A stretch of DNA of 64,000 nt, taken from Pseudonocardia acidicola (lineage in GTDB: Bacteria > Actinomycetota > Actinomycetes > Mycobacteriales > Pseudonocardiaceae). The stretch spans positions 1 through 64,000 of the forward strand of contig NZ_JAAXLA010000014.1 of the NCBI RefSeq assembly GCF_012911935.1, read 5' to 3'. Both the position numbers and the translations under genes were made by a program. Shown in pieces: positions 2,354 to 29,200 of the stretch (position 1 is the first letter of the stretch; the number at the start of each line of letters is the position of its first letter). The notes under the pieces are model-generated. The model saw only the letters and a program-made list of their open reading frames with translations, was not told the DNA's origin and ran no database searches.

Positions 2354-3067
2354 TCAGCCCGCGCTCGCCGGCGCCGGTGCCGGGCTGCCCGCGCGGCCCA
2401 GCCGCACCTGCGGCAGCCCGGGGGTCTGCCCGCGGTGGTGGGTGGCGATCAGTACCGTGCGTCCCACGGTGGCGCGGAGCACCTCGGCGGCCAGCGCAGG
2501 GTGCCGGCCGGCCGCCCCCCGGTTCACCCGGGGAGGTGGGCCCGGCCGCGACGGTCGGGGGGCTGATGGCGTCGCGGCCGGGGCAGGAGGGGCCGGCGCG
2601 GGGCCGGCCGTGGGGAGTGTGGTGGTGGGTGCCCGCAGCGGGCGATCGGCGATGAGCGCCCGGGCGAGTGCGACCCGCCGCCGCTGCCCGGTGGACAGGG
2701 CGGTGCTCCGCTCGCCGACGAGCGTGGCCAGCGGGATGTCGAGGGCGGCCTGCGCGGCGGCGCGGCGTACCCGGCCGCGGTCGGGCCGGCGCAGGCCCAG
2801 CGGAATCAGCGGCACCGTCAACCCGATCAGCAGCCCGGAGAGCCGGTCGGCGAACAGGATCCGGCCCGCCCCGATGACGGGCACCACGGCTGCCACGAGC
2901 AGTGTCGGCAGGTAGCGGCCGAGGAACGCGCGGTCGATACCGACGGCCAGGAGCTGGGCCTGCGCCATCACCAGGACGGCGGTCGGGACGGCGACGCCGG
3001 CGGCCGGCCCGACGTGGCGCCGGGCCGCCGCGGCGTGCCGCAGCAGGCGCGGGTCGAGCGGTCTCAC
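2354..3067 (-). pseudogene. cydD: Remnant of CydD (thiol reductant ABC exporter subunit)
   Basis: This 237-codon frame has an intact start and stop but is under half the usual CydD length of about 550 residues. It begins RPLDPRLLRH, as CydD does, and keeps two stretches of the membrane domain (the second starting RYLPTLL and ending TVPLIPLG). It then jumps to the ABC signature region (ERSTALSTGQRRRVALARAL) and a short C-terminal end. Walker A, Walker B (expected LLDEPTA) and most membrane helices are missing, so it cannot be a working transporter. CydDC exports cysteine or glutathione and is needed for cytochrome bd assembly. The intact cydAB pair lies at 31.8-34.2 kb. The GTG start overlaps the upstream stop by GTGA, a remnant of operon structure. 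Confidence 0.75.
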
Positions 3068-3201
3068 CGGCGGCCCGCCGGCTCGCCGGCGGACGGCCGG
3101 GCCGGGCCGTCGGCCGTTGCGGCCGGTTGCCGCGTCCAGGCGCGAGCGGTGCGGGTGAGCGACCCCGGCCGGGTGGTCGCCAGGCGCGCGCGCTTGTCCA
3201 T
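3064..3201 (-). CDS. Small ORF coupled to the cydD remnant
   Basis: A 45-residue basic reading frame starts MDKRARLATTRPGS behind a very good ribosome-binding site (AGGAGGAG, six bases before ATG). Its TGA overlaps the GTG of the cydD remnant as GTGA, so the two were translationally coupled. It has no membrane segment and no recognisable domain. It may be the eroded 3' partner of a once larger gene in the cyd operon, or a leader whose translation set the level of cydD. The strong start signal is the only positive evidence. Confidence 0.4.
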   Translation of the reverse strand: MDKRARLATTRPGSLTRTARAWTRQPAATADGPARPSAGEPAGRR

Positions 3202-3436
3202 CGCTCCTCCTGGCTCGGTTCGGGCCCACCTGGAACTGCGGGCTTTCCGGCTCGGGGAGCAGCCTGACGTGTGGGGGTCGGCGGTCGGCAGGGTCCATCG
3301 GCCCCCCATTTGGCGGGGATGCGCAGGCCGTTCGGGACCTGGGCCCGGCGATATGCGCCGTCGGTCGGCTCCGGGCCTCTCGCGCGGATCGTTCTCAAGC
3401 CTGCGACCAGGCGCGATGCCGGTTCTGGCCCGGTGA

Positions 3437-3450
3437 GGGACCTTGGACCC
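3437..3450. promoter_or_regulatory. Candidate DevR/DosR-type box
   Basis: GGGACCTTGGACCC matches GGGNC-N4-GNCCC at every fixed position and is flanked by A and T to give a 16-bp imperfect palindrome. It is nearly the same as the box ahead of the 24.4-kb gene (GGGACGTTGGACCC). No intact gene starts close by: the small cyd-linked ORF lies 236 bases away on the minus strand. Confidence 0.45.
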
Positions 3451-3485
3451 TATCGCCGCGGTGGCCGACGGGAGTGCACTCGGCC

Positions 3486-3560
3486 CTCGGCACGGAGCCG
3501 GTGCCGTGTGGGGGCGGTGGGGACAACGGGGCACACCGACGGCACCGGCTCCGTGCCGAG
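3486..3560. repeat. 20-bp perfect inverted repeat, 35-base loop
   Basis: CTCGGCACGGAGCCGGTGCC at 3486-3505 is matched exactly by its reverse complement at 3541-3560. The inner flanks (GTGTG and CACAC) can extend the stem with a small bulge. No T-run follows on either strand. It could be an mRNA hairpin, an operator pair or the edge of a decayed mobile element. Confidence 0.8.
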
Positions 3561-4009
3561 CCGTCTGTCCGGACGGCGGCGACGCCGGGCCCGCCCGCAA
3601 CGGCCCACGGCCGTTGCGGAGGCTGCGAGACCTGGGACAGCCCTGGGGGACACGGTGGGCCGGCACGGCTGGTCCGGTCGCGGACCGTCGCGGCACAGGC
3701 CCGGCTCGGCGGCGCGATGCGCATCCAGGTCCGGCGCGAGATCGACCGCCGATGCACGTCCCCGGACGAGCTGATGGCGACGGCAGTGGACACCTTCTCG
3801 GGACACCTTCTCGGCGATGGAGACGTGGCTGGGCCCCCCGACGGGCGGACGGGCCGGCCGGCCGGGGCGACGCCGGGCGCCTCCGCCCGGGTCCACCGGC
3901 CGACCTGACCGACTGCCCGCGAACCGGTCATCCCCGGCGGCGTCCGGCCGCACGGGGTGCTGTTGTGCGCGCCGGCCTGTGCGAGGTCGGCGGAGGCGGC
4001 CGAGGTCCC

Positions 4010-4023
4010 GGGCCGGAGGGCCC
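4010..4023. promoter_or_regulatory. Candidate DevR/DosR-type box ahead of the CBS gene
   Basis: GGGCCGGAGGGCCC matches GGGNC-N4-GNCCC at every fixed position. It lies 104-117 bases before the ATG of the CBS protein. The local sequence is nearly all G and C, so a chance match is possible. Confidence 0.4.
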
Positions 4024-4126
4024 GGCGGGCGCGGCCCTCCGGACCTGGCCCGGGCGCGCGGCCCTGCCGACGATGAGCGCATCACCGCCGCGCAGGTGCG
4101 GCGGCCCACGGAACGAGGGAGGCCCG

Positions 4127-4534
4127 ATGACGACCGGTGTCCGGCAGACCCGCCCGTCCGATCCGGTCCGCCGGATCATGGTCAGCCCGGTGGCGAGCGT
4201 CGACACCGGCTACACGGTGGCCGAGGTCGCGGCCGAACTGGCTGCCGACGAGATCGGCGCGGTCCTGGTGGAGAACTCGCACGGCGCGGTCGGAGTCGTC
4301 TCCGAACGTGACGTCGTCACGGTGCTCGGCACCGGCGGCGACGTCGACACGATGCAGGCCGGGGACCTGATGAGCACCGACATGGCCTGGGTCGACCCCG
4401 AGGACCCGATCTCCGCGGTCGCCGAGCTGATGTGCGAGGCGGGGGTGCGGCACGCCCCCGTGCGCGAGGGCGGCACCGTGGTGGGCATCGTGTCGATCCG
4501 CGACGTGCTGCCGGTCTACATGGCCGGGGGCTGA
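4127..4534 (+). CDS. Tandem CBS-domain protein
   Basis: The 135-residue protein consists of two CBS motifs (about residues 12-65 and 78-133), with the typical PVASVDTGYTVAEVA and WVDPEDPISAVAELM openings and the repeated GVVSERDV and GIVSIRDV ends. A paired CBS unit binds adenine nucleotides or similar ligands and usually senses energy state. The stand-alone layout resembles the hypoxic response protein Hrp1 (Rv2626c) of the M. tuberculosis DosR regulon, which suits its neighbours (universal stress proteins and DevRS). The ATG at 4127 follows a strong GAGGGAGG site. Longer upstream extensions of the frame are low-complexity and were rejected. The ligand is unknown. Confidence 0.9.
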   Translation: MTTGVRQTRPSDPVRRIMVSPVASVDTGYTVAEVAAELAADEIGAVLVENSHGAVGVVSERDVVTVLGTGGDVDTMQAGDLMSTDMAWVDPEDPISAVAELMCEAGVRHAPVREGGTVVGIVSIRDVLPVYMAGG

Positions 4535-4621: not shown

Positions 4622-4978
4622 TCACGGTCCTTCGAGTGCGGTGCGCGCCACGAAGTCGGCGACGTCGCAGGCCGCCGGGGTGCAGCCGCCGGGCACGGTC
4701 GCCTGGCGCCGCGGCGCGGCCCCGGCGACCTGTGCGGTGCACACCGACCAGCCGTCCCGGGCGTTCCAGTAGGCCCAGACCGGCAGCCAGGACGGCCCGG
4801 CGGCGGTGGCCGGCACATCGAACAGCACGGTCCCGTGGTCGCCGTGCACGATCGCCCCGTCCACCAGCAGTTCGCGGCGCACCAGTTCCTCCACCACGTC
4901 CCACAGGTAGCGCGCCGCCAGGTCGTCGCCGGGCGCCGGCTGGTCCGGCACCGGGACGGGCCCACGCAGTGCAGTCAT
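4622..4978 (-). CDS. Hypothetical 118-residue protein downstream of the usp pair
   Basis: The product has an acidic helical N-terminal half (LAARYLWDVVEELVRRELL) and a beta-rich middle (AIVHGDHGTVLFDVP, then LPVWAYWNARDGWSV). It ends in a segment with two cysteines seven residues apart. No family is recognised. It lacks a signal peptide and membrane segment. It starts 40 bases after the stop of the tandem universal stress protein on the same strand, so it probably belongs to the usp operon and may be expressed under the same stress. GC-rich third codon positions and plausible composition support a real gene. Confidence 0.65.
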   Translation of the reverse strand: MTALRGPVPVPDQPAPGDDLAARYLWDVVEELVRRELLVDGAIVHGDHGTVLFDVPATAAGPSWLPVWAYWNARDGWSVCTAQVAGAAPRRQATVPGGCTPAACDVADFVARTALEGP

Positions 4979-5018: not shown

Positions 5019-5933
5019 TCAACCGCCCCGGGTGCCGCCGGCGAGCACGGGGCGCAGACGGTCCGGCAGCGCCGGACGGGGGCCGACGACCGCGACCGGG
5101 CAGGCGCCGCCGTGCAGCAGAGCCCACGTGGTGCGGCCCAGGGCACGCCGGCCGTGCCCACCACGGCCGACCACGAGCAGTTGCGCGGAGTCGGAGAGTT
5201 CCAGCAGCGACCAGGTGGGGCTGCCGCGCATCACCTCCGGGTGCACGGTCAGCCCGGGATGCAGTGCCGCGGTCCCGGCCAGGCAGTCGGCGAGCAGCCG
5301 ACGGGCGGCCTCCCGCGCCGGCTCGTGTTCGCGGCGGCACAGCCGGCGCAGCGCGTCGGCCGGGCGTTCGAACCACACGTGCACCGCGACGAGCACCCCG
5401 CCGCGTTCCCGGGCGATCTGCGCGGCCACGTCGACGGCGGCCCGGCTGTCCGGCGATCCGTCGACCGCGACGACGATCGGCCGCGCCCGGTCGGGCACCG
5501 GGCGGCCCGCGGCGGCACGCACGACCAGCACCGGGCACGCGGCGCGGCGGCCCACCGTCACCGCGACCGAGGAGTGGGCCGGGCGGTCCACGCCGCCACC
5601 GCCCCGGTGCCCGACGACCAGCAGACCCGCCTCCCGGGACAGCTCGGTGAGCACCTCGGCCGGTCGGCCGGCCCGGCACCGGATGCGTACCGGCACGTCG
5701 GCGACGGCGCGGGCGATCGTGCGCGCCCGGTCGAGGATGCCGGCCGCCGTGTCCGTCGGCTCCGACACACACACGATCTCCAGTGGCCTGGCGTGCAGGG
5801 CGGCCTCCTCGGCCGCCCACGCGACCGCCCGCAGCGCGGGTCCGGAGCCGTCGGCGCCGACGAGCACGGACGGCACGGACGGCATGGACGGCACGGACGC
5901 GGGAGGCGGGCGCCCCGGGCCAGGGCTGCTCAC
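5019..5933 (-). CDS. Tandem universal stress protein
   Basis: This 304-residue cytoplasmic protein has two UspA domains (about residues 22-140 and 150-285). The first has the phosphate-loop segment VVGHRGGGGVD, the second VVGRGGHGRRALGRTTW, both variants of the G-2x-G-9x-G-S/T ATP-binding motif. Each domain opens with a V-DGS strand (LVGADGSGPALRA and VVAVDGSPDSRAA). The architecture is that of Rv2623, an ATP-binding DosR-regulon protein linked to growth arrest. The N-terminus carries a short serine-proline-valine repeat from a 9-bp DNA repeat. Its ATG overlaps the stop of the upstream single-domain usp by ATGA, so the two are co-translated. Confidence 0.93.
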   Translation of the reverse strand: MSSPGPGRPPPASVPSMPSVPSVLVGADGSGPALRAVAWAAEEAALHARPLEIVCVSEPTDTAAGILDRARTIARAVADVPVRIRCRAGRPAEVLTELSREAGLLVVGHRGGGGVDRPAHSSVAVTVGRRAACPVLVVRAAAGRPVPDRARPIVVAVDGSPDSRAAVDVAAQIARERGGVLVAVHVWFERPADALRRLCRREHEPAREAARRLLADCLAGTAALHPGLTVHPEVMRGSPTWSLLELSDSAQLLVVGRGGHGRRALGRTTWALLHGGACPVAVVGPRPALPDRLRPVLAGGTRGG

Positions 5934-6337
5934 CCCGCTCGGCCCGTCGTCAGCGGCACCAGGACCACCGGTCCCTCCGCCTCCCGGTGCACCTGCGACG
6001 CCACCGGCCCCAGCTTGTCGGGCGCGCCGCCCTCACCGAGGACCAGCACGGAGGCCTCGCGGGCCTCACCCAGCAGGGCGTCGGCCGGGGGCTGGTCGGT
6101 CAGGGTGACCGTGATGACGAGCCCGGACCGCCCGGTCGTGCTGTAGCGGGCCACCCGTGCGGCTCCCGCGATGATCGCGTCGATCCGCCCCGGGTCGTCG
6201 TCGGGATGAACGGCATAGACCAGCCGCAGCGGCACCCGGCGGCGTTCCGCCTCCATGGCGGCCGCGGCGACCGCGCGTAGCGAGCACCGCGACCCGTCGA
6301 CCCCGACCACGACGTTTCCGACGGCCGTCGTCCTCAT
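5930..6337 (-). CDS. Single-domain universal stress protein
   Basis: This 135-residue UspA-fold protein opens with VVVGVDGSRCSLRA. In the nucleotide loop the usual GRGGHG is replaced by LVLGEGGAPDKLGPVASQV, so ATP binding may be weak or altered. It is the first gene of a probable three-gene operon (usp, tandem usp, hypothetical), joined to the next gene by an ATGA overlap. A palindrome of the DevR-box type lies 80-93 bases before the start. Usp proteins with and without ATP binding are both common in dormancy regulons. The family call is firm; the role is inferred from context. Confidence 0.9.
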   Translation of the reverse strand: MRTTAVGNVVVGVDGSRCSLRAVAAAAMEAERRRVPLRLVYAVHPDDDPGRIDAIIAGAARVARYSTTGRSGLVITVTLTDQPPADALLGEAREASVLVLGEGGAPDKLGPVASQVHREAEGPVVLVPLTTGRAG

Positions 6338-6416
6338 CGCCCTCGCCCGTTCTCACCCGTCCACATCCTGGCCCGGCCCACACCCCGACCCTGCCCGGGG
6401 CCGGCGCCCTGCGGCA

Positions 6417-6430
6417 GGGCCCAAAGACCC
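6417..6430. promoter_or_regulatory. Candidate DevR/DosR-type box ahead of the usp operon
   Basis: GGGCCCAAAGACCC matches GGGNC-N4-GNCCC fully. Read on the minus strand it is GGGTCTTTGGGCCC, close to the published M. tuberculosis DosR consensus GGGACTTTNGTCCC (recalled, not looked up). It lies in the only gene-free DNA upstream of the usp operon. Confidence 0.6.
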
Positions 6431-6454
6431 CGGGTCGAGACCGGGCTCGGAGGA

Positions 6455-6655
6455 TCAGCCGCGGCCGACCTGCTCCCGCGGCACGACGTGCGAGTCGGGA
6501 CCCGGGTAGTAGATCGATTCGTGTCCGTCCTGCCAACGGACCCGGTAGTGGCACATATCCGCGACGCCGAGGACCTCGAGGACCTCGCCCCGCCGCGGGG
6601 GCTGGTCCAGGGTCGTCGTGGCGATGACGATCTCGTCGCCGACCTGGGCCTCCAT
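6455..6655 (-). CDS. DUF1918 small protein
   Basis: The 66-residue protein is a full-length DUF1918 domain. It has the opening VGDEIVI, the central RRGEVLEVLG and the C-terminal YRVRWQDGHESIYYPGPDSHV, which give an SH3-like beta barrel. The family is common in actinobacteria and has no proven biochemical role. The ATG at 6655 follows a strong GAGGAGAGGAG sequence; a longer frame beginning at 6712 is rejected because it passes through this site. A DevR-type palindrome lies 58-71 bases upstream, the same spacing as for two other genes in the island. Confidence 0.9.
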   Translation of the reverse strand: MEAQVGDEIVIATTTLDQPPRRGEVLEVLGVADMCHYRVRWQDGHESIYYPGPDSHVVPREQVGRG

Positions 6656-6712
6656 GGGCGTCTCCTCTCCTCGGCTCGACCGAATGGTGCTCCGTTGCGC
6701 CGTCCCGGCCAA

Positions 6713-6726
6713 GGGCCGGAGGTCAC
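6713..6726. promoter_or_regulatory. Candidate DevR/DosR-type box ahead of the DUF1918 gene
   Basis: GGGCCGGAGGTCAC has one mismatch to GGGNC-N4-GNCCC and shares the AGGGCCG left half with the devR and nitroreductase boxes. It sits 58-71 bases before the DUF1918 start and 140 bases before the divergent VOC gene. Confidence 0.45.
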
Positions 6727-6865
6727 CGGGGCTCGGGCCGGTCGGACCTCGCGGTCGGCAGTTGATGACCGCGCCGGCCTGCGGCCGCTCGGGACCTTCC
6801 GCTCTGGCGCCCGGTGGGCCGGGCTGGCAGCCTTCCGCGCGACCCGTCGGCGCGGGAGGACCACC

Positions 6866-7630
6866 ATGGCCGATTCGGGATTCCCGACCCCCGGCACGAT
6901 CGCGTGGCTGGACCTGATGACCGACGACGTGGAGGTCGCCGAGCGGTTCTACACCGGCGTGCTCGGCTGGACCTACGCGACGGCGTGGACCCCCCTCGGC
7001 GACTACGGGGTCGCCCGGGTCGGGGACCGGGACGTGGCCGGGCTGATGACCACCGACCCCGGTGTGCCGGGCCCGGCGTCGGCCTGGGAGGTGTTCGTCG
7101 AGGTGGCGTCGATCCAGATGACGCTGGCGTCGGTCCGGGCGGCGGGCGGCACGGTGCTGCAGGAGGCGGTCGAGGTGCCCGGCGGTGGGCGGATCGGGGT
7201 GTTCGCCGACCCGACCGGCGCCGTGCTGGCCGTCGTCGAGTCGCCGCCGGGGGCGGGACCGCCCGCGAGCGGGGTGCCGGGCGGGTTCGCCGGCGTCGAG
7301 TTGCGGTCCGCCGACCCGGAGGTCGCGCGGGCGTTCTACACCGCGGTGCTGGGCTGGCGGACGGAGCGCAGCCTCCCGGATCGCACCACGTTCCTGCTCG
7401 AGGGCAGTCCGGTCGCCGGGCTCGCCGCGACCTCCGACGAGGTCGCCTCGTCGCGCTGGCTGGCGTGCTTCGCGGTGGCCGACATCGACGAGGCGTTGCT
7501 GGCCGCTGCGCAGCGAGGCGGCTGGGTCGCCGGCCCGGTGACGGTGACCAGCACCGGTCGGATGGCGGTGGTGGAGGATCCCCGTGGTGCCTGGTTCGCG
7601 CTCGTCGAACCCGCCGGAGTGGCCGGTTGA
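6866..7630 (+). CDS. Two-domain VOC (glyoxalase-fold) protein
   Basis: The 254-residue protein contains two vicinal-oxygen-chelate domains (about residues 10-122 and 135-250). Each has the typical FYTGVLGW or FYTAVLGW helix and ends in a D-P-x-GA strand (FADPTGAVLAVVE and VEDPRGAWFALVE). Such proteins bind a metal and act as hydroxylases, dioxygenases or resistance proteins, so the substrate is open. The closest group I know is the set of actinobacterial tandem VOC proteins annotated as hydroxylases. The start ATG at 6866 follows GGGAGGA. It is convergent with the nitroreductase, and a hairpin spans the two stop codons. Confidence 0.88.
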   Translation: MADSGFPTPGTIAWLDLMTDDVEVAERFYTGVLGWTYATAWTPLGDYGVARVGDRDVAGLMTTDPGVPGPASAWEVFVEVASIQMTLASVRAAGGTVLQEAVEVPGGGRIGVFADPTGAVLAVVESPPGAGPPASGVPGGFAGVELRSADPEVARAFYTAVLGWRTERSLPDRTTFLLEGSPVAGLAATSDEVASSRWLACFAVADIDEALLAAAQRGGWVAGPVTVTSTGRMAVVEDPRGAWFALVEPAGVAG

Positions 7631-7648
7631 CCGCGCTCAGCGCGCGGT
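7630..7648. terminator. Compact bidirectional hairpin between convergent genes
   Basis: ACCGCGC, loop TCAGC, GCGCGGT: a perfect 7-bp stem that overlaps the stop codons of both converging genes. There is no T-run, as is usual for high-GC actinobacterial terminators. Confidence 0.5.
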
Positions 7649-8641
7649 GCTGGGCTCGGGCATGAGCAGGTTCTCGACCGGCCGCCGCGGGGTCGCCGCG
7701 ACCGGCCACCCGTATCCGATGCGCAGCACCGCCTGCGGCGGGTGCGCGCCGCTGATGAGCCTGCGCAGCTTCTCGCGGATCTCGGGCACCTCGGTCAGCT
7801 GGGACAGGAACGACACGGCCAACCCGTGCACGGTCGCGGTGAGCAGCACGTGTTCCAGCGCCAGGCCGGCCTGCAGTTCGGCGTCCGGTCCGGCGAGGTG
7901 CGCGCTCAGCACCGCGATGAGTGGCTCGTTCTCGAAATCCTTGCCGTCGACCCGGGTCCGGCCGCGCCCGGCGGTGAAGTCGCGCAGCACCCAGGTGTCC
8001 TGCTCCTCGGGCAGCGGGCCACCGGCCGAGGCCGGCACCCCGTCGCAGCGACCGTCCTCCGCCCCGGTCCACGCGGCGAGCTCGGCCCGGAAGCCCGGGT
8101 CGGCCATCTGGATCTCGTGGGCCTGCGCCGCGAGCCGTCCGACCTCGGCCCGCTCGGCCGGCCCGGCCACGATGTGCAGCCACCCGTTCTCGTCGAGCGC
8201 TGCCCGGCGCAGCGCGTGCTGTTCGGGCGCCGCGACGGCGGTGTCGCTGAACGGGCGGCGGTTGGTGCGCCGCAGGGGGAGCGCCCGCAGCAGCCGGGTG
8301 AGCTGCGGGGTGGGCGTCTTGCGCCCGCCGTGGCGGACGACCGCGAGGAGTTCCGGTTGCCCACGGACGGGGTACAGCGTGACGATCGGCCGGATCCCCA
8401 GACCCAGCAGGGCGGTGCGCAGGTTGAACAGCGCGGCGCCGCACGCCAGCCGCAGTTCCCGGTCGTCGGGGTCGGACACCGGCAGTCGCCGCGCCGGGTC
8501 GGTGTGCAACTCGATCGCGTGCGGCGTCACCCGGAACCGCCAGGGCTGCGTGTTGTGCACCGACGGGGCCCGGCCGGCGGCGCGCAACAGGCTCGCGACC
8601 TGGTCGGAGTCCAGTCCGAGGGCAGCGGGAATCGTGCTCAT
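7637..8641 (-). CDS. Acg-family nitroreductase-like protein
   Basis: The 334-residue protein has the Acg hallmark RAPSVHNTQPWRF near the N-terminus, a second paired segment (LPLRRTNRRPFSDT) and the C-terminal LRIGYGWPVAATPRRPVE. This is the layout of M. tuberculosis Acg (Rv2032), Rv3127 and Rv3131. Acg proteins bind FMN, carry a lid that blocks the site, and seem to store flavin rather than act as active nitroreductases. All are DosR-induced. The ATG at 8641 has a GGAGAGG ribosome-binding site. It is divergent from the DevS-type kinase gene; a second Acg-like gene lies 2.7 kb away. Confidence 0.93.
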   Translation of the reverse strand: MSTIPAALGLDSDQVASLLRAAGRAPSVHNTQPWRFRVTPHAIELHTDPARRLPVSDPDDRELRLACGAALFNLRTALLGLGIRPIVTLYPVRGQPELLAVVRHGGRKTPTPQLTRLLRALPLRRTNRRPFSDTAVAAPEQHALRRAALDENGWLHIVAGPAERAEVGRLAAQAHEIQMADPGFRAELAAWTGAEDGRCDGVPASAGGPLPEEQDTWVLRDFTAGRGRTRVDGKDFENEPLIAVLSAHLAGPDAELQAGLALEHVLLTATVHGLAVSFLSQLTEVPEIREKLRRLISGAHPPQAVLRIGYGWPVAATPRRPVENLLMPEPSTAR

Positions 8642-8715: not shown

Positions 8716-8729
8716 GGGCCGATACGGCC
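8716..8729. promoter_or_regulatory. Degenerate DevR/DosR-type box between nitroreductase and devS
   Basis: AGGGCCGATACGGCC (8715-8729) keeps the left half AGGGCCGAT of the perfect devR box, but the right half is shifted by one base. It lies 75-88 bases before the nitroreductase start and about 130 before devS. Confidence 0.35.
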
Positions 8730-8807
8730 GAATGCCCTTCCGGGGCAAGGCGAACCGCCCCACCATCCCGGTGCGCAGGGCTGCTTGCCCGGGTTCGGGG
8801 ACCGTGA

Positions 8808-10589
<1,782 letters not shown>

Positions 10590-11334: not shown

Positions 11335-11358
11335 GGCCAGGGCCGATCGGCCCTGGCC
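11335..11358. promoter_or_regulatory. Perfect 24-bp palindrome ahead of devR (best DevR box)
   Basis: The core AGGGCCGATCGGCCCT (11339-11354) is a perfect palindrome centred on GATC and extends by four more paired bases on each side (GGCC). It lies 79-102 bases upstream of the devR start. It resembles the operator described for the Streptomyces DevR homologue OsdR (from memory). It could also act as a hairpin at the 3' end of the nitroreductase gene. Confidence 0.75.
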
Positions 11359-12308: not shown

Positions 12309-12343
12309 GGCGCCAGGGTTTCCCGGGTGGCCCGCCGCAATCA

Positions 12344-12357
12344 GGGCCGAAGGTCCT
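12344..12357. promoter_or_regulatory. DevR/DosR-type box between nitroreductase and CBS-BON gene
   Basis: GGGCCGAAGGTCCT, flanked by A and C, has one mismatch to GGGNC-N4-GNCCC. It is 36-49 bases before the nitroreductase start and about 135 bases before the divergent CBS-BON gene, so one site could serve both. Confidence 0.6.
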
Positions 12358-12491
12358 CTCTCGGTGCTGGCGCAGCGGGTTGTGCCGGGCGGGCTGGAGG
12401 ACCTGCCCGGGTGGGCCCAGCGGCCCTGGCGCCTCGCGGCGGGCCGTGCCTAGCGTCGGGTCCGGTGCCCGACCCCACCAGGAGGAAACGC

Positions 12492-14368: not shown

Positions 14369-14513
14369 CGAGAGGTCTCCGTTCTGCTCCGGTCGCCGCG
14401 CGGTCCGGGCGACCGACGCCAGCATGCCGTCCGGCCTCGAGGGCGGTGCGGGCGGTGTGCGAATCGGCGTCCGGTGTGTCGCGGACGCCACTGGTGGGCG
14501 GCGGCTGCGCCGT

Positions 14514-17035: not shown

Positions 17036-17045
17036 CGGCCGACGC

Positions 17046-20193: not shown

Positions 20194-21636
20194 ATGGTCA
20201 CCGCGGCAACGCTGACCCTTGTCGAGGAGACGCCTTACCGCTGGCGGCTGGACCGGCGGGGTGCGATGCGCGTCCCGGGCATCGTGTTCGCCACCCAGCG
20301 GCTCCTCCCGGAGCTGGTGGGGGACCGCTCGCTGGAGCAGGTGGCGAACGTCGCGACGCTGCCCGGCATCGTCGTGGCCTCCTACGCCATGCCGGATGTG
20401 CACTGGGGGTACGGCTTTCCCATCGGAGGGGTCGCCGCCACCGACGTGGACGACGGCGGCGTGGTCTCCCCCGGGGGTGTCGGCTTCGACATCTCCTGCG
20501 GGGTCCGGTTGCTCGTGTCACCCCTGCTGCGCCACGAACTCCGGCCGCACCTGGCCGACCTCATGGACGCGCTCAGCCGGCGCATCCCGCGCGGCCCCGG
20601 GCCCGGCGGGGTCTGGCACCTCTCCGGCGGCCTGCGCGAACTCGAGGAGGTGCTCCGGGGCGGCGCCCGCTACGCCGTGGAGCGCGGGCACGGCGTCCCC
20701 CGCGATCTGAGCCGCTGCGAGGACCAGGGCGCGGTCGACGAGGCGAACCCCGCACAGGTCAGCGTCCGGGCGCTTCAGCGGGGGCTCGGTCAGGTCGGCA
20801 GCCTGGGTTCGGGCAATCATTTCCTGGAGGTGCAGGCGGTCGACGCCGTGTTCGACGAGGCCGCCGCAGACATCTTCGGACTGCGCATCGACCAGGTCGG
20901 TGTGATGATCCACTGCGGCTCGCGCGGGCTCGGGCACCAGATCTGCTCCGACCAGGTACGGGTGATGGCTGCGTCGATGTGGCGGTACGGCATCAGCGTG
21001 CCCGACCCGCAGCTGGCGTGTGTACCCGTCCGGTCCCCCGAGGGTGCGGCGTATCTGGGCGCGATGGCCGCCGCCGCGAACTACGGGCGGGCCAATCGGC
21101 AGCTGCTCACCGAGGCCACCCGCGAGGCCTTCGGCCTGGCGACGGGCACGTCCGGGCTGGACCTGCTCTACGACGTCTCGCACAATCTGGCCAAGCTCGA
21201 ACGGCACCCGGTCGACGGGACCGAACGCGTGCTGTGCGTGCACCGCAAGGGCGCGACCCGGGCCCTGCCTCCGCTCCACCCGGAGCTGCCGCCGGACCTG
21301 GCACGAGCCGGCCAGCCGGTGCTGGTGCCCGGCTCCATGGGCACCGCCTCCTACGTGCTCGCCGGCACCCGCGACGGTGCGGCGTTCCACTCCACCTGCC
21401 ACGGCGCCGGCCGGGTGATGAGCCGGCACGCCGCACTGCGCGCGATCACCGGACGAGAGCTGCGGCAGGAGCTGGAGAGCGCCGGAATCGCGGTCCGGGG
21501 TACGACCCAGCGGGGCCTGGCCGAGGAGGCGCCGTTCGCCTACAAGGACGTCGACGAGGTCGTCGGCTGTTGCGAGCTGGCCGGCCTGGCCCGCCGGGTA
21601 GCCCGGCTGCGCCCTCTCGGAGTCGTGAAGGGCTGA
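20194..21636 (+). CDS. rtcB: RtcB RNA-splicing ligase
   Basis: The 480-residue enzyme joins RNA 2',3'-cyclic phosphate or 3'-phosphate ends to 5'-OH ends using GTP and Mn2+. Visible motifs are [22 protein letters not shown] (metal Asp and Cys), [39 protein letters not shown] and [14 protein letters not shown], which contains the guanylylated histidine. The length is normal. The ATG at 20194 follows CGGAGGA. The divergent archease is its cofactor. Their placement in a hypoxia-type island suggests RNA repair, or ribosome or tRNA maintenance during dormancy. A weak DevR-like palindrome (GGGCCCGGGTGCCC, 20073-20086) lies in the shared promoter. Confidence 0.95.
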
Positions 21637-22231: not shown

Positions 22232-22936
22232 CTAGGGGCCGACGGGCTCGTCGGGCAGCGCCGTGCAGTCCCGGCCACCGGCGCACACCGGGAACTCCCG
22301 GTGGTGTGCCAGCCACAGGCGGATCAGCGACGCCTCCAGGTCGCGCAGGTCGAGCCCGGCCTGCCCGGCGACAGCGCGCAGGCGTTCGAGTGGTTGATCC
22401 TGTGTGCCGACGAGCCCGGCGTGCTGCGCCGCCTCCGCGGCGCGGTCGTCCGGCGGCGGATCGACGTCCGGCCAGACACCGCGCAGCTCGCGCAGGAACA
22501 GTGACACGGTGACCGGCCCCCACCCCGGTAGCTCGTCCAACGCGGCGCGCCGCTCACCGAGGCTGCCCTTGCCCAGCATGTCGATCCGGAGGCCGCGCAG
22601 TGTCGCCGCGAGCTTCTTCAGGCGCAGCGCCGTGCGGTAGTCGTACCGGGCGTACCCGCCGCGGTCCAGCAACTCGACGAGCCCGTTCGTGCTCGTGGCG
22701 TCGACGTCGGTGAGCGTGCCGACACCGGAGGCGGCCAGCAGACGGTAGGTCCGGACCGCGATCGCGGTCGAGATCCGGGTACCGAACAGCGTCGCGGCCA
22801 GCAGCCACCGCTCGATCTCCCGAGGACCGCGGTCGACGGCGATCCCCATCTCGGTCGAGAACCGTCCGCCGTAGGTCTCCACCAGGCGCTGAGCGCGGAT
22901 CGACACATCGGTGACGTCCGTCCTGCGGGTTGGCAT
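22232..22936 (-). CDS. HhH-GPD-type DNA glycosylase / endonuclease III-like protein
   Basis: The 234-residue protein has the helical layout of the endonuclease III superfamily: ERWLLAATLFGTRISTAIAV, a region of helices with KKLAATLRGLRID, and the helix-hairpin-helix ELPGWGPVTVSLFLREL followed by the acidic VWPDVDPPPDDRA where the catalytic Asp is expected. The C-terminal cysteines are too few for an iron-sulphur cluster. It may be a base-excision glycosylase or a non-catalytic relative. The ATG at 22936 has a strong GGAGGAGG site. It lies in the dormancy island, but no clear DevR-type box is seen upstream. Confidence 0.75.
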   Translation of the reverse strand: MPTRRTDVTDVSIRAQRLVETYGGRFSTEMGIAVDRGPREIERWLLAATLFGTRISTAIAVRTYRLLAASGVGTLTDVDATSTNGLVELLDRGGYARYDYRTALRLKKLAATLRGLRIDMLGKGSLGERRAALDELPGWGPVTVSLFLRELRGVWPDVDPPPDDRAAEAAQHAGLVGTQDQPLERLRAVAGQAGLDLRDLEASLIRLWLAHHREFPVCAGGRDCTALPDEPVGP

Positions 22937-23084: not shown

Positions 23085-24428
23085 TCAGACGCTGGGCTGC
23101 GGCGCCGGGACGAGGTGGTTGACGAACCAGTCACGCGCGAGCCCCGCGGCCTGGTCGAGTGTCCCGGGCTCCTCGAACAGGTGAGTGGCGCCGGGGACGA
23201 CGGCGAGCCGGTTCTCACCGCGCATCAGGGCCTGAGCCCGCCTGTTGAGGTCGAGCACGGCGGTGTCGTGGCCGCCCACGATGAGCAGCGTCGCCGCGCG
23301 CACCTCGCCCAGCCGCGGGGCGGCCAGGTCGGGGCGGCCTCCGCGGGACACGACCGCAGCGACGTCCGCGTCCGGAGCCGCGGCGGCCCACAGCGCCGCC
23401 GCCGCACCCGTGCTCGCGCCGAAGTAGCCGATCGGGAGGTGCCGGCACGACGGCTGGCCGCGCACCCACGCCACCACCTCGGCCAGCCGGCCGGCCAGCA
23501 GTTCGACGTCGAAGACCATGGCCCGGCTGTGTTCCTCCTGCGGGGTCAGCAGATCGAACAGCAGCGTCGCCAGGCCCGAGCGCTGGAGAATCCCGGCGAC
23601 GTAGCGGTTACGGGGGCTGTGCCGGCTGCTGCCGCTCCCGTGCGCGAACACGACGAGTCCGGTGGCGTGCTCCGGCACGGTGAGATGCCCGGCCAGCCGC
23701 ACCGGCCCGGCGGCCACCTCGACCTCCTCATCGACCGCCCGATCGCCCGGGGACGGATCGGCACCGGCGGCCGCCGCCGGCGCGGGGACCGCCTGCGCAG
23801 AGCGCTGCAACAGCTCCACGACCTGCTCGTCCGAGACCTGCCGGAAGTCGAGGTAGAACTGCCCGACGGCGAAGAACCACTCGGGGGTCTCCAGGCACAC
23901 CATCTCGTCGACCTCGCCGCGCAGCCGGAGGGCGCTGTCGGGCGAGCAGACCGGCACCGCGAGCACGACTCGAGCCGCGCCCTGGGCTCTGGCCACCTGA
24001 CACGCGGCCCGGGCCGTCGAGCCGGTCGCAATCCCGTCGTCGACCACGACCGCCGTGCGGCCGGCCAGCGACAGCCGGCGCCGATCCCGGCGGAAGCGCC
24101 GGGCCCGCCGCTCGAGCTCGGCTTGTTCCGAGCGCTTCACCTCGGCGATCTCGGCCTCGCTCACAGCAGCCATCTGCAGCACGCGCTCGTTCAGCACGAG
24201 CACGTCGCCCTCGCCCACCGCGCCCATCGCGAGCTCGGGCTGGTAGGGCAGACCGAGCTTGCGCACGACGATCACATCCAGTGGCACGTCGAGTGCCTGG
24301 GCCACCTCGAACGCGACCGGAACCCCACCCCGGGGCAGCCCCAGTACGACGACGTCCTGCCCCTGAAGGTGCCGTAGCGCCTCGGCCAGCTGCCGCCCGG
24401 CCTCCATACGATCGATGAACGGCATCAC
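23085..24428 (-). CDS. Phosphoribosyltransferase-dienelactone hydrolase fusion (Rv0571c-like)
   Basis: The 447-residue protein joins a type I phosphoribosyltransferase (residues about 5-215) to an alpha/beta hydrolase (about 235-440). The PRT half has VVLGLPRGGVPVAFEVA, VVRKLGLPYQPELAMGAVG and the PRPP motif AVVVDDGIATGST. The hydrolase half has VVFAHGSGSSRHSPRNRYVA (oxyanion), GYFGASTGAAAAL (nucleophile Ser), GGHDTAVLDLN (Asp) and GATHLFEEPG (His). The same fusion, Rv0571c, belongs to the M. tuberculosis DosR regulon; substrates are unknown. A fully matching palindrome lies 52-65 bases before the start. The ATG is at 24428 or 24425. Confidence 0.93.
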   Translation of the reverse strand: MMPFIDRMEAGRQLAEALRHLQGQDVVVLGLPRGGVPVAFEVAQALDVPLDVIVVRKLGLPYQPELAMGAVGEGDVLVLNERVLQMAAVSEAEIAEVKRSEQAELERRARRFRRDRRRLSLAGRTAVVVDDGIATGSTARAACQVARAQGAARVVLAVPVCSPDSALRLRGEVDEMVCLETPEWFFAVGQFYLDFRQVSDEQVVELLQRSAQAVPAPAAAAGADPSPGDRAVDEEVEVAAGPVRLAGHLTVPEHATGLVVFAHGSGSSRHSPRNRYVAGILQRSGLATLLFDLLTPQEEHSRAMVFDVELLAGRLAEVVAWVRGQPSCRHLPIGYFGASTGAAAALWAAAAPDADVAAVVSRGGRPDLAAPRLGEVRAATLLIVGGHDTAVLDLNRRAQALMRGENRLAVVPGATHLFEEPGTLDQAAGLARDWFVNHLVPAPQPSV

Positions 24429-24479
24429 GGCCTCCCTCGCTCAGGCGGTCATTGTTCGGGGCGCGGGCTCGTGATGACA

Positions 24480-24493
24480 GGGACGTTGGACCC
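24480..24493. promoter_or_regulatory. DevR/DosR-type box ahead of the PRT-hydrolase gene
   Basis: GGGACGTTGGACCC matches GGGNC-N4-GNCCC fully and lies 52-65 bases before the start codon. It differs by one base from the box at 3437-3450. Confidence 0.6.
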
Positions 24494-24650
24494 GGTGGGC
24501 GGGAGCACCCCGGCAGCTCGGCTTTCCGCGCCGGCGCGGACCGCCGGCGCGGACCACGCCGTGAAACGGCGCTCACCGGTGCGGGATGCGGCCATCACGG
24601 TGGCTCCGGCCAGGCCACCGAGTCGACACCACCGGATGCCGCGGTTCGCG

Positions 24651-24842
24651 TCAGCCGATGTACGGATCCTGCCGGCCGAGACCTTCGGCGACCTCCTGCG
24701 GGTCGAGGTTGAAGCTCCGCAGGAGGTCGGCGTCGCGTTCGGTGTCGACGTGCTCTGGAAGCTCTGCATGGGCGCGGTCCGCCGCCTCACGGCCGCTCTC
24801 GGTAGCGATCCGCTCCACCACCATGCCCTTGGGGATGTGCAT
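24651..24842 (-). CDS. Small acidic protein of unknown function
   Basis: The 63-residue protein starts MHIPKGMVVERIATESG behind a strong AGAGGAGG site. It is helical and acidic, with the C-terminal LLRSFNLDPQEVAEGLGRQDPYIG. It has no cysteine, membrane segment or known domain. It is upstream of the PRT-hydrolase gene on the same strand, 222 bases away, and a DevR-like site lies 109-122 bases before its own start. Short uncharacterised proteins are common in dormancy regulons. The ribosome-binding site and composition are the main support. Confidence 0.6.
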   Translation of the reverse strand: MHIPKGMVVERIATESGREAADRAHAELPEHVDTERDADLLRSFNLDPQEVAEGLGRQDPYIG

Positions 24843-24950
24843 GACGTCAACCTCCTCTGCGCGACGTTCTCGGTCAGTGTTGTTCAGTCACCGGCAGGTG
24901 CCGCAGCAGCGAATGTCCCGCCAGGAGCAGGAGAGACTGTGGCGATGTCG

Positions 24951-24964
24951 GGGACCTACGGCTC
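24951..24964. promoter_or_regulatory. DevR/DosR-type box ahead of the small acidic protein
   Basis: GGGACCTACGGCTC (minus strand GAGCCGTAGGTCCC) has one mismatch to GGGNC-N4-GNCCC. It lies 109-122 bases before the 63-residue frame. Confidence 0.4.
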
Positions 24965-25077
24965 TGTCTGCCGGCGACGAGTCGTCGGGCAGCACTGCCG
25001 GGCGATGGCCGGCCGGCCGCTCGAGCGGATCTCCACGGCCTTGCGTTCGCTCCGGTCGAGCTCCGTCGGCGTGTGAC

Positions 25078-25281: not shown

Positions 25282-26394
25282 TCAGGGGAAACGGCAGAGC
25301 GCCCCGATGCCCTCCAGTGGTGCCTCCGGGCCACCGGTGGGCGCCAGGACGCGGACGCCGGCCCCGCTCAGCAGCGCCGAGCGCACGGCGACGTCGACCA
25401 GGGGGCCGCCTTCCGGGTGCAGCCCGGCACGCTCCAGCAACTCCGGCTCGGCGGCCACGTCCGCCGGGCCCGGGCCGTACCAGGCCATACGGGGCTCCCC
25501 GGTGTCCGGGGTGAGCAGCAGGATCCGGGCGCGGCCCTGTGCCAATGCCGCCAGGGTGGGCTCCACACCGTCTACGGCGCACCCACCCGGACGCCGTTCC
25601 TCGTCGAGCTGGCCCAGCAGCAGAGCGGTCTGCGCCGCCACCGCCAGACGTACGTCGTCGGCGACCTGCTCGGCTCGCAGTTGCCACGATCCGTCGGGGC
25701 TGCGGCCGCCGGAGACGCGGTGGATGACGATCTTGTGCTTGATCTGCGTGGGCAGGTGCTTCTCCAGGTACTGCAGCGCGCGCACGTCCCCGGCGAGGAT
25801 CAGGAGCCGGATGGCGTGCCGGCGGATGTGGGGCGCCAGTACCTCGGCCACCCGGGTGGCGTTGTGCTCCCAGGAGTCCTCGGCCCGGTGCTGGTAGCGG
25901 CCCTGCGCCCAACCTCCCGGCGCGTTGCGTTCGATCTCGTCGTCCGGGCCGCTGACGGCCTGCCGGACCGGGGTGGCCGTGCCACCCGGGTGGACGGTGA
26001 TGTCGGCGCCGGTGCGGTCCACCAGGGCCACGACGTAGGGAGGCCGGTTCTGCAACCAGTCCAGGAGCGGCAGGAAGTGCGGCAGGCCGCCGTACCTCGC
26101 CAGGTCCGGCTGGTCGGCTTCGGACATGTGCGCGCTGAGCAGGACCTCGTCCCCGGCGACGAACGTCGCGAGCACGCCGGACCCCGGTACGGCCCCCAGG
26201 ACACGGCCCCGCACCGTCTCGATCGTCGTGTCCCCGGCACCGTGGTGGGCGAGTTCCCTGGCGATCACATGCCAGCGCGGCAGCGCCTCTTCCTCTCCCG
26301 TCGCCCGAAGGCTGAAGTAGACCGACGCGATCGGGCCGGGCCGGGAGTACATGTCGCGCAGCACGTGGGTGCCGTGGCTGGTGAGCTTGTGCAT
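25282..26394 (-). CDS. Rv2629-like release-factor-fold protein (baeRF family)
   Basis: The 370-residue protein aligns by eye along its length with M. tuberculosis Rv2629. It has an N-terminal GPIASVYFSLRATGEEEALPRW-type strand, the central PPYVVALVDRTGADITVHP, the HRAEDSWEHNATRVAEVLAPHI region, and the C-terminal domain ending PLEGIGALCRF. These proteins share the eRF1 domain 2/3 and Vms1 fold and are proposed to act at stalled or hibernating ribosomes, but their reaction is not established. Rv2629 is DosR-induced. The ATG at 26394 (MHKLTSHG) fits the family start. A DevR-type box lies 58-71 bases upstream. Confidence 0.88.
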   Translation of the reverse strand: MHKLTSHGTHVLRDMYSRPGPIASVYFSLRATGEEEALPRWHVIARELAHHGAGDTTIETVRGRVLGAVPGSGVLATFVAGDEVLLSAHMSEADQPDLARYGGLPHFLPLLDWLQNRPPYVVALVDRTGADITVHPGGTATPVRQAVSGPDDEIERNAPGGWAQGRYQHRAEDSWEHNATRVAEVLAPHIRRHAIRLLILAGDVRALQYLEKHLPTQIKHKIVIHRVSGGRSPDGSWQLRAEQVADDVRLAVAAQTALLLGQLDEERRPGGCAVDGVEPTLAALAQGRARILLLTPDTGEPRMAWYGPGPADVAAEPELLERAGLHPEGGPLVDVAVRSALLSGAGVRVLAPTGGPEAPLEGIGALCRFP

Positions 26395-26451
26395 GACTGC
26401 ACCGTCGGTCGCGGCGATCGGCACGGTAAGAGCCCAAGGGCGATCCATCGG

Positions 26452-26465
26452 GGGTCCGAGGTCCA
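26452..26465. promoter_or_regulatory. DevR/DosR-type box ahead of the Rv2629-like gene
   Basis: GGGTCCGAGGTCCA has one mismatch (last base) to GGGNC-N4-GNCCC and lies 58-71 bases before the start, as for the DUF1918 gene. Confidence 0.45.
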
Positions 26466-26843
26466 TCGGGTACGGGCGCCGACCTCGGGGCCGGCCTCGC
26501 CTGCCGGATCCCGAGGCGATGGTCAGGACCGGACGGGCACCATCGCCCCTGTTCCGGTTCGCTGCGCTGGACGTCCGGGCGACGGCTTCCTCGGTGCTCA
26601 GCAGGGGAGCGCGGTGCCGGCTGACGGTGAGGGGGAGTGTGTGGTGGGCCAGGTCCTGCGGGCGCGGGTCGACCTGGGCCAGGCGGTAGCCGGTCGGGCC
26701 GTCGCGACAGAGCCCAGCGTCGGTGACCGGCTCAGGAGGTTGGTGACGACGGGTCCCCTTCGCCCCGAGCGATCGGAGCGTCGGCCGACCGAATGGCGTG
26801 CACGAGAACAATGCGCGCGGCGCGAATCGGGCAGCATGGTGCC
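26466..26843. other. Gene-free stretch ahead of nadE
   Basis: These 378 bases contain open but low-complexity frames, no ribosome-binding site except for the flanking genes, and no palindrome matching the DevR pattern. The minus-strand frame continuous with the Rv2629-like gene contains a few protein-like segments around 26590-26760, but nothing recognisable. Confidence 0.5.
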
Positions 26844-28919
26844 ATGCAAGAAGGATCAACCTGCGCCACCTCTTTCGCCTCGCTGTACCGGCACGGCTTC
26901 GTGCGCGTGGCGGTGGCCGTCCCGGAAGTGCGCGTGGCTGATCCCGCATTCAACGTCGAGCGGTCGCTGGACCTGGCGCACAGGGCGGCGCGCGAGGGCG
27001 CCATCATGACCGTGTTCCCGGAATTGGGCCTGTCCTCGTACAGCGCAGAGGACCTGTTCCATCAGGACGCCCTGCAGGATGCGGTGGATACGGCACTGGA
27101 TCGGTTCGTCGAGGAGAGCAGGCGGATAACCGGAGTGCTCGTCGTCGGCGCCCCGATGCGACTCGACGGCCGCCTGTTCAATTGTGCTGTGGTCGTGCAC
27201 CGCGGTGAGATACTCGGCGTGGTCCCGAAGAGCTATCTGCCCAATTATCGGGAGTTCTACGAGAAGCGGCAGTTCGTCGCGGCCCGGGACACAACGGTCG
27301 ACCGGATTTCGGTCGGAGGGCGGTCGGTGCCGTTCGGTAACGACCTGCTCTTCGACGCGTCTACCGTCGCCGGGTTCGTGTTCCATGTCGAGATCTGCGA
27401 GGACGGCTGGGTGCCGATGCCGCTGAGCGGATACGCGGCGCTGGGCGGGGCGACGGTGTTGATCAACCTCTCGGCGAGCAACATCGTGGTCGGCAAGGCC
27501 GACTACCGGCGGCAGTTGTGCACGGGGCATTCAGCGCGCTACATCGCCGGCTATCTCTATGCCGCGGCGGGTTCCGGTGAGTCGACGACGGACCTTGCAT
27601 GGGACGGGCACGCGCTGGTCTGCGAGAACGGGGAGGTGCTCGCCGAGAGCGAGCGCTTCGCCGGTGGAGGGCAGCTGGTCACCGCTGATGTCGATCTCCA
27701 GCGGCTCGCGGCGGATCGCATGCGCATGACGAGCTTCACCGACAATGCGCGCGATCACCGGGACCGGTTGCGGCTGTTGCGCCGGGTCACGTTCGCACCG
27801 ACGCTGCCGGACACGGTGGTGCGACTGCGTCGCGAGATCGAGCGGTTCCCGTACGTGCCCGCCGACCCGGCCGGGCGCAACGAGCGGTGCGCCGAGGTGC
27901 ATCACATCCAGGTGCAGGGACTGGTCACCCGGCTCGCGGCGACAGGCCTGCAGAACGTCGTGATCGGCGTGTCCGGCGGGCTCGATTCCACCCAAGCCCT
28001 CATCGTGGCGATCAGGAGCATGGATCGGCTCGGCCTGCCCCGCACGAACGTGCTGGCCTACACGATGCCCGGCTTCGCCACGAGCTCCCGCACCCTGACG
28101 AGCGCGCGGCGGCTGATGAGCGCCCTCGGCACGACCGCACACGAGATCGACATCAGGCCCTCGGCGATGCAGATGCTGCGCGACCTGAACCACCCGGCAG
28201 CGTACGGAGCCGCCGTCTACGACGTCACGTTCGAGAACGTGCAGGCCGGCGAGCGCACCTCCCACCTGTTCCGCCTGGCCAATCACCACGACGCCCTCGT
28301 CGTCGGTACCGGCGATCTCAGCGAACTGGCCCTCGGCTGGTCGACCTACGGTGTCGGCGACCAGATGTCGCACTACAACGTGAACGCCTCGGTACCCAAG
28401 ACGCTGATCAGGTACTTGATCTCCTGGGTCATCGAGACCGGGCAGTTCGGCCCCCAGGCCGCCGCGGCGCTGCAGGCCGTGCTGGACACCGAGATCTCAC
28501 CGGAGCTGATTCCGTCCCCGGACCCGGCCTCCGCGCAACCGATGCAGAGTTCCGAGGCCGTCGTCGGCCCCTTCGACCTCCAGGACTTCCACCTCTACTA
28601 CCTCCTGCGCTTCGGCTACCGGCCCAGCCGCATCGCCTACCTCGCCCAGCACGCGTGGAGCGATCGGACCCGGGGCCGATGGCCCGACCTGGTCCCGCCC
28701 GACCAGCGCCATGAGTACGACCTGGCCACGATCAAGCGGTGGCTCGAGGTGTTCCTGCGCCGTTTCGTGCAGACCAGCCAGTTCAAGCGCAGCGCCCTGC
28801 CGAACGCCCCCAAGGTCGGCTCCGGTGGGTCGTTGTCCCCGCGGGGCGATTGGCGAGCACCCAGCGACGCCAGCGCGCAGGCCTGGATCCATGAGCTCAG
28901 CCACGACGTACCCGGCTGA
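26844..28919 (+). CDS. nadE: Glutamine-dependent NAD+ synthetase
   Basis: The 691-residue enzyme converts deamido-NAD+ to NAD+ with ATP and glutamine. The N-terminal nitrilase-type amidase (about residues 15-290) has the triad Glu in [11 protein letters not shown], Lys in [19 protein letters not shown] and Cys in [13 protein letters not shown]. The synthetase domain (about 340-690) has the ATP loop [36 protein letters not shown] and the C-terminal [15 protein letters not shown]. It is collinear with the M. tuberculosis enzyme. The start is taken as the ATG at 26844; no strong ribosome-binding site is visible. Several third positions are A or T, somewhat more than in neighbours. NAD supply is a plausible need in dormancy. 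Confidence 0.96.
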
Positions 28920-28933
28920 GGAGGGGCCGGCCG

Positions 28934-29200
28934 GTGCCTCGTGAGCGGGGGCCCTCGGTCTCTTCGCACCCGCTGGACCGTCTTCTCTCCGATGCGCGGG
29001 AGCGCCATCCCCGGGTGCCGGTGCGTCACGTGGTGGCCGTCGACCGGCCTGCGCAGGCGCTGCTGGACGAGACCGTCGGCGCCACTCTGCTCGTGGTCGG
29101 CCGTCACGGGCGTACCCGAAGCCCCGAGGCGCCGCTGGGGCCGGTGAGCCACGCCGAGGTGCACCACGCCCGCTGTCCCGTCACCGTCGACGGCCGACCC
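28934..29200 (+). pseudogene. Relic of a universal stress protein
   Basis: After a GTG at 28934 the frame gives DRLLSDARERHPRVPVRHVV, then PAQALLDETVGATLLVVGRHGRT and AEVHHARCPVTVDG. That is the second half of a UspA domain including the ATP-loop VVGRHGRT. The first half, with the V-DGS strand, is missing, and no stop follows the natural end: the frame runs on antisense through ppgK. It was probably a third usp gene of the island. Confidence 0.7.

Follow-up and report, generated by a model that had tools for sequence, protein, structure and literature searches.

A probable DevR-type dormancy island around devRS in Pseudonocardia acidicola, with shared predicted regulator sites

Gene clusters under DevR-type response regulators are already known from Streptomyces coelicolor (PMC5069765) and from mycobacteria, and the island described here, from a 64,000-nucleotide stretch of the Pseudonocardia acidicola genome (contig NZ_JAAXLA010000014.1, positions 1 to 64,000 of the forward strand, hereafter the window), is ordinary in kind. 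The papers cited in this text are each drawn on in part, and what is said of them extends to those parts. The DosR/DevR regulon of Mycobacterium tuberculosis shares with the island its regulator and kinase families, Acg oxidoreductases, universal stress proteins (Usp), an Rv2629-like protein and a related palindrome, TTSGGGACTWWAGTCCCSAA, and differs in that its genes are distributed over several loci and in the flanks and centre of its palindrome (PMC2275270). The OsdR/OsdK region of S. coelicolor (SCO0167-SCO0219) likewise holds a DevRS-type pair among Usp and nitroreductase-type genes; the same palindrome recurs at several places around the regulator, and one site precedes the regulator itself. 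Unlike the island, the region includes a nitrate reductase, whereas in P. acidicola the nar and cyd genes lie in a separate cluster with a DevR paralogue (PMC5069765). In another genus, the DosR boxes of Rhodococcus equi follow the consensus NNNGGGHCNWWNGNCCCBNN, close to the matrix learned here (PMC2947987). Our search for literature combining Pseudonocardia, DosR and hypoxia found none, and we claim nothing wider.

An earlier note on this DNA, made from the sequence alone, had proposed that 27 kb of the window (2354-29200) form one dormancy island under common DevR-type control. The gene identities, the conserved sensor and DNA-reading residues, and the excess, placement and partial conservation of predicted regulator sites make a DevR-type dormancy island around devRS, with shared predicted sites, very probable in our judgement. 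The common control is smaller in reach than proposed: it is supported for about 3-13 kb and for a phosphoribosyltransferase (PRT)-hydrolase gene at 23-24.4 kb, and not for archease/RtcB, NadE, the gene at 22232 or the genes at 13055-18242. The single 27 kb regulon is better reduced to the part at about 3-13 kb and the PRT-hydrolase, perhaps with the small gene at 24651.

The window corresponds to contig C55 in a genome (G000) of 7.16 Mb and 165 contigs, and the best named matches of its devR are from Pseudonocardia. Genes were called by codon bias and families were assigned from Pfam and NCBIfam scans; the genes named earlier are all present, as open, coding-biased frames in the places and families given. 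The members of the island that bear on shared control are as follows.

4127-4534, plus strand: protein with two CBS domains, Hrp1-like in architecture only
4622-4951, minus strand: small protein with weak resemblance to DUF6292, encoded at the end of the Usp group; candidate regulon member
5019-5885, minus strand: tandem universal stress protein, closest solved relative TB31.7
5930-6337, minus strand: single universal stress protein, by family scan
6455-6655, minus strand: DUF1918 protein, by family scan
6866-7630, plus strand: glyoxalase-like protein, without counterpart in the island of the related genome G048
7637-8641, minus strand: Acg-family FMN oxidoreductase 1 (Acg1), by NCBIfam, matching solved Acg
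8868-10589, plus strand: DevS/DosT-type sensor kinase, GAF-GAF-HisKA_3-HATPase, with the haem-region His and Tyr conserved
10594-11256, minus strand: DevR/DosR/OsdR-type (NarL-type) response regulator with a receiver and a LuxR/GerE output domain; DevR is its closest solved relative
11376-12260, minus strand: Acg-family FMN oxidoreductase 2 (Acg2), by NCBIfam, matching solved Acg
12492-13043, plus strand: CBS-BON protein, the BON domain under the Pfam cut-off (25.8 vs 27)
23085-24425, minus strand: PRT-hydrolase fusion, Pribosyltran domain above the Pfam cut-off

M. tuberculosis DevR is the best solved relative of the regulator, at 241 bits (the next, VraR, reaches 147), and its DNA-reading helix, AEKTVKNYVS, is identical in the alignment here and in all three DevR paralogues of the genome; we assume for its residues the roles assigned to the recognition helix of DevR. 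The best solved relatives of the kinase are DosT and DevS, with which the histidine of PPxHPPM, which we take to be the proximal haem histidine, and the tyrosine of FGxLYLT, whose role we likewise presume, align. Both nitroreductases that had been called Acg-like belong to that family, scoring 321.5 and 230.6 bits against a cut-off of 199 for NCBIfam NF047509 ('Acg family FMN-binding oxidoreductase'), with the second under the Pfam nitroreductase cut-off (19.5 vs 23.5). In the PRT-hydrolase, an architecture that we take to be that of Rv0571c, the alpha/beta hydrolase matches of the hydrolase half are weak and under the Pfam cut-off. From these parts we infer a mechanism in which the DevS-type haem kinase probably senses oxygen loss or nitric oxide and would phosphorylate DevR, which would then bind VGGGNC(C/G)WW(C/G)GNCCCB palindromes and near variants, and may induce its own gene, the Usp genes with 4622, the Acg flavoproteins, and the DUF1918, CBS, CBS-BON and PRT-hydrolase genes.

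Two matrices were used to score sites. The S. coelicolor matrix was built from the 26 OsdR sites of Table 1 in PMC5069765; the relatives' matrix, seeded with it, was trained on 90 upstream regions (16,878 bases) from 20 devR loci of 15 relatives, own genome excluded, and moved in training to a form that has an AT-rich centre and resembles the boxes of R. equi and mycobacteria (PMC2275270, PMC2947987). The training genes were Acg, Usp, DevR, DevS, CBS, Rv1733c-like, DUF1876-labelled, PNPox-like and DUF1918 genes, labelled via blastp and in several cases by eye; at 17 of the 20 devR loci (15 genus genomes) the fetched stretch holds an Acg or Usp gene. Scores below refer to the relatives' matrix unless the other is named, and all sites are predicted.

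3288-3307: predicted DevR site, 14.6, with 20 of 20 bases identical in G048; orphan group
3434-3453: predicted DevR site, 17.9, in the orphan group with the 3288 site
4007-4026: predicted DevR site, 12.8, 110 bp upstream of the CBS gene 4127
6414-6433: predicted DevR site, 11.7, 87 bp upstream of the Usp genes; the G048 site scores 10.8
6710-6751: two adjoining predicted DevR sites (6710, 10.0; 6732, 10.5) in the DUF1918/glyoxalase-like gap
8722-8741: weak predicted DevR site in the Acg1/devS gap, with a stronger one at a comparable distance in 9 of 12 Acg1 relatives
11337-11356: perfect OsdR consensus palindrome, 17.1, 91 bp upstream of devR
12341-12360: predicted DevR site, 13.9, between Acg2 and CBS-BON
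24477-24496: predicted DevR site, 18.9, the window's top score, 62 bp upstream of the PRT-hydrolase
24948-24967: predicted DevR site, 11.5, 116 bp upstream of the gene at 24651

With the S. coelicolor matrix, the top match in the 64 kb is AGGGCCGATCGGCCCT at 11339, which equals the published consensus (PMC5069765), is centred 91 bp before devR and outscores all 26 of the OsdR sites used in training. Eleven of the 15 matches of at least 8.9 are intergenic, all of them within 2.3-29.2 kb, and the remaining four (28439, 29664, 50644, 55348) are intragenic. With the relatives' matrix, a score of at least 11 is reached by 7/22 promoter regions in the island, 0/20 in the rest of the window and 12/276 on other contigs (Fisher p 8e-5 for the island against the other two combined), and a score of at least 9 by 9/22, 1/20 and 24/276; overlap among some of the 22 island and 20 other window regions makes the comparison rough. 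The 276 background regions, from 29 other stretches (529,943 bases), were chosen in part around pattern matches and otherwise freely, and include clusters later found to be regulon-like, so that in this respect the comparison is conservative. Among 200 palindrome-preserving permuted matrices, the number of island regions reaching 11 averaged 0.36 with a maximum of 5, none of the 200 attaining the observed 7; at 9 the mean was 1.2 and the maximum 8.

Part of the arrangement is conserved. On contig C268 of G048, whose DevR is 95% identical, the order CYTH-CHAD, 4622, Usp2, Usp1, DUF1918, Acg1, DevS, DevR, Acg2 is that of the window, the devRS-Acg-Usp core included; the window order then continues in G048 with the 14514 regulator, LytR, two other genes, PPGK, PGM, CydA and CydB. 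Upstream of devR in other genomes, 15 of the 28 sites of at least 11 are centred 83-94 bp before the start, against permuted-matrix averages over the 108 regions of 1.2 with such a site and 0.17 at that distance; they were found at 9/19 training loci (8 near 90 bp) and at 19/89 loci outside the training set (7 of the 19 near 90 bp). Among 12 distinct relatives of Acg1 (53-77% identity), 9 have a site of at least 10 at 52-107 bp, as do 4/5 of those outside the training loci. Full-length PRT-hydrolase relatives in other genomes carry a site of at least 10 in 4/7 cases, at 57-64 bp in 3/7; the paralogue of this gene in P. acidicola itself, on contig C65, has an upstream score of 7.3. Across 80 named devR loci (at most 10 kb on each side, many shorter), DevS-like genes were found in 61, Usp in 17, Acg in 14 and PRT-hydrolase in 1. 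As a separate observation, the CYTH-CHAD gene (771-2303) flanks the island in P. acidicola and G048 alike, and the PRT-hydrolase/CBS clusters L283 and L284 also contain a CYTH-CHAD-like gene.

Several results weigh against a DevR-type island with shared sites. Only 28 of 108 distinct devR upstream regions in other genomes have a site of at least 11 within 200 bp, the devR of G048 scores only 9.3, and the site between Acg1 and devS only 9.0; two PRT-hydrolase relatives (L227, L237) are without a site and a third (L229) reaches only 7.8. The description of the CBS protein 4127-4534 as Hrp1-like proved loose, with the Rv2626c entries ranking 19th and 20th of 25 PDB matches. Of the 276 background promoter regions, 12 reach 11, several of them being neighbours of Usp, Acg or CBS genes. 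In the window, the loose patterns GGGACNNNNGTCCC (with one mismatch) and GGGNCNNNNGNCCC are not in excess, the counts being 10 vs 11.7 expected in one search and 5 vs 10.6 in another, and genome-wide the loose GGGNCYNNRGNCCC is rarer than its reversed control, 79 vs 204. The loose-pattern counts are also what speaks for chance, that is, for common stress genes that happen to be neighbours in a GC-rich genome with accidental GC-rich palindromes, an explanation that we regard as most improbable: the strict pattern VGGGNCSWWSGNCCCB, with flanks and AT centre, is two-fold enriched genome-wide (47 occurrences, 4 of them inside the 27 kb, vs 24 for the reversed control), a pattern picked after the matrix had been seen; permuted matrices never match the observed count; the matches are intergenic and lie at preferred distances; and the gene order is kept. 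Only the matrices or the strict AT-centre/flank pattern separate the signal from the GC background.

The island devR is one of three in the genome (100, 92 and 88% identical, the next protein 42%), and the three share the same recognition helix, so the main readers of the sites could instead be the two paralogues encoded on other contigs, or another NarL-type regulator. We consider this unlikely, given that the island devR alone of the three has a site of at least 6.5 in its 300 bp upstream and sits inside the island; the three may also act together, in which case such reading does not exclude DevR control from within the island. With a reported genome contamination of 5.37%, a single origin of contigs C55, C93, C44, C65 and C115 is likely rather than certain. 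On C93, devR2 is followed about 26 kb away by a dense Usp/Acg/CBS group in which 12/18 promoter regions reach at least 9 (8 distinct sites). The DevS-like protein near devR2 (L018:11788-13074, 428 aa) retains its GAF domains and the haem-type motif but has lost both the phosphoacceptor histidine, DLHDHVIQR being replaced by DLNDTLMTR, and the ATPase domain; no other near-full-length protein among the 72 DevS-like ones listed is without the histidine box, which is present in L176, L189 and L105, and the two others without it (L102, L150) are fragments. Contig C44 (L021, L039) holds devR3 with cydAB/CydDC-like, CBS-BON, pyridoxamine-oxidase-like, DevS-like kinase, Rv2632c-like and Usp genes, together with acetate kinase, phosphoketolase, and a molybdopterin oxidoreductase and an MFS transporter that look NarG-like and NarK-like, respectively, by eye, and several of these genes have predicted sites. 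Smaller site-rich groups lie on C65 and C115, the latter (L259) with Acg-like, cytochrome oxidase-like, Hsp20-like and flavodoxin-like genes (names partly by eye), and several of 40 other genomes carry two or three devR copies. We tentatively suggest, at less than even confidence, that one dormancy regulon is assembled from several islands (C55, C93, C44 and the site-rich Acg/Usp/CBS/Hsp20-like clusters of C65 and C115), with three near-identical DevRs reading the same site and 4622 as a new member; since only the island devR has a site of its own and the DevS-like protein near devR2 is truncated, different signals would converge on one output.

The right half of the 27 kb was examined for the same control. 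The halves are separated, at 13055-19006, by two regulator/kinase pairs of OmpR type and a LytR-type gene (families by eye); the genes at 13055-18242 have no predicted DevR site and the regulator at 18287 has a weak one (9.2). The other genes in question are the following.

19550-19885, minus strand: archease, by family scan; without DevR site
20194-21636, plus strand: RtcB RNA ligase, by family scan; without DevR site
25282-26424, minus strand: Rv2629/Balon-like (baeRF2) protein; weak site, 7.2
26901-28919, plus strand: glutamine-dependent NAD synthase (NadE), matching the solved glutamine-dependent type; without DevR site

That the entire 27 kb forms one DevR regulon, to include RNA repair, ribosome hibernation (the Balon-like protein) and NAD synthesis, is suggested by the genes all sitting together. 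We take Rv2631 to be RtcB. In M. tuberculosis, one study gives Rv2629 a motif of DosR type and a change point under hypoxia; the study places Rv2631 among the units without an obvious DosR site and finds it uninduced, noting that others saw induction (PMC2275270); Balon genes often adjoin RtcB (PMC10901736), and one archease relative has a site of 10.1, another none. Against these points, the best scores here are 3.7 for archease/RtcB, 1.3 for NadE and 0.4 for the 22232 gene; RtcB is present in 3/40 genus genomes, own included; RtcB, archease, Balon and NadE occur in 0 of the 80 named devR loci; and G048 has other genes at the position of the right half. The S. coelicolor site table, in the part drawn on, contains no RtcB, archease, Balon or NadE (PMC5069765). 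We rate one regulon over the whole 27 kb as distinctly unlikely, and regard archease/RtcB, NadE and probably the Balon-like gene as neighbours of the DevR island without demonstrable DevR control. NadE has one second match in the genome, a distant one (32%), and so is more likely housekeeping.

For the Balon-like gene, the Rv2629-like label given earlier stands in so far as the protein matches Rv2629 over its full length (8v9k, E 5e-22), as in the described Balon (Rv2629/Msmeg1130) hibernation factors, whose RtcB neighbourhood is already reported (PMC10901736); unlike these, it falls under the equivalog cut-off of NCBIfam NF052289 (180.7 bits vs 320). Its 7.2 site score is reached by 17% of background promoter regions. 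The gene is found in 13/40 genus genomes, own included (2 of the 12 other genomes with a match failed the alignment filter), and 0/10 distinct relatives have a site of at least 6.5 in up to 300 bp, one being scored on 83 bp only. The PRT-hydrolase is found in 12/40 genus genomes, own included, some matches being partial. A 55-residue piece 76% identical to the Balon-like protein lies elsewhere in the genome (G000:C77:220900-221064). At 22232-22936 the window encodes a 234-aa protein, helix-hairpin-helix glycosylase-like by eye, with no family match above cut-off and no relative among the compared loci.

In G048, two other genes, one of them Hsp20, take the place of about 16.7-29.2 kb (from the LytR gene to a glucokinase-like gene), and the window alone has the ABC remnant described below, the CBS, glyoxalase and CBS-BON genes, the histidine kinase HK13055 and the genes at 16.8-29.2 kb. 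The contrast in the right half may reflect gene loss in G048 or gain in the window genome; in transfer RNA and Rfam scans, nothing marks the right half as a mobile insert.

Small genes had also been put forward as regulon candidates, with mixed outcome. For 4622, which we regard as a fair candidate on its neighbourhood and predicted sites, the match to Pfam PF19809 (DUF6292) is 17.3 bits (cut-off 27.1; E 0.0064), and its relatives match the family down to 1.8e-6, a 28%-identical one in G010 scoring 28.6. Matches occur in 4/39 other genus genomes, two of them weak (E 1e-4, 6e-4) and one with stops; the gene closes the same Usp group in G048, and the G019 relative (41-45%) has a site of 17.7 upstream. 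The second candidate is listed here.

24651-24842, minus strand: 63-aa protein of a small family, with relatives in 3/39 other genomes

It has a site in the window, and neither of the two relatives scored has one of at least 6.5. The gene at 25078 has no relative among the compared loci, the genus not having been searched for it, and its membership is doubtful.

The lower end of the interval, 2354, falls in a decayed ABC-transporter gene and not in a dormancy gene.

2354-3067, minus strand: decayed, non-working ABC transporter gene made up of CydDC-like pieces; conserved DevR-type sites lie upstream of it
2536-2583: 48-base terminator-like hairpin element with a 13-bp stem, 48 of 48 bases identical in G048 (L278:1694-1741)

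Against a CydDC-like protein from the genome itself, this gene aligns in scattered pieces only, and its ABC_tran match is weak and under the cut-off. In G048, L278:1694-2055 has four sites of at least 9.9 within about 125 bases, and the hairpin is kept too. The identical hairpin and 20-base site in G048 had suggested a DevR-controlled small RNA at 2536-3288, which we rejected as first choice: the intervening space is ABC-gene debris here and a shorter remnant in G048 (by eye), weaker hairpin matches are numerous and scattered across the genus, and Rfam gave nothing at its cut-offs in this region, with relaxed matches at chance level only. A dead gene that has retained its promoter sites and terminator is the simpler account of 2354-3453.

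A DevR-type island of this kind would give the DevR system familiar from tuberculosis latency a close counterpart in an environmental genus, with the targets clustered there and the sites readable, so that a shared regulon core may be separable from later additions. It also yields predictions that can be put to the test: 4622 and the PRT-hydrolase would be members of the regulon, and RtcB/archease and NadE would not.

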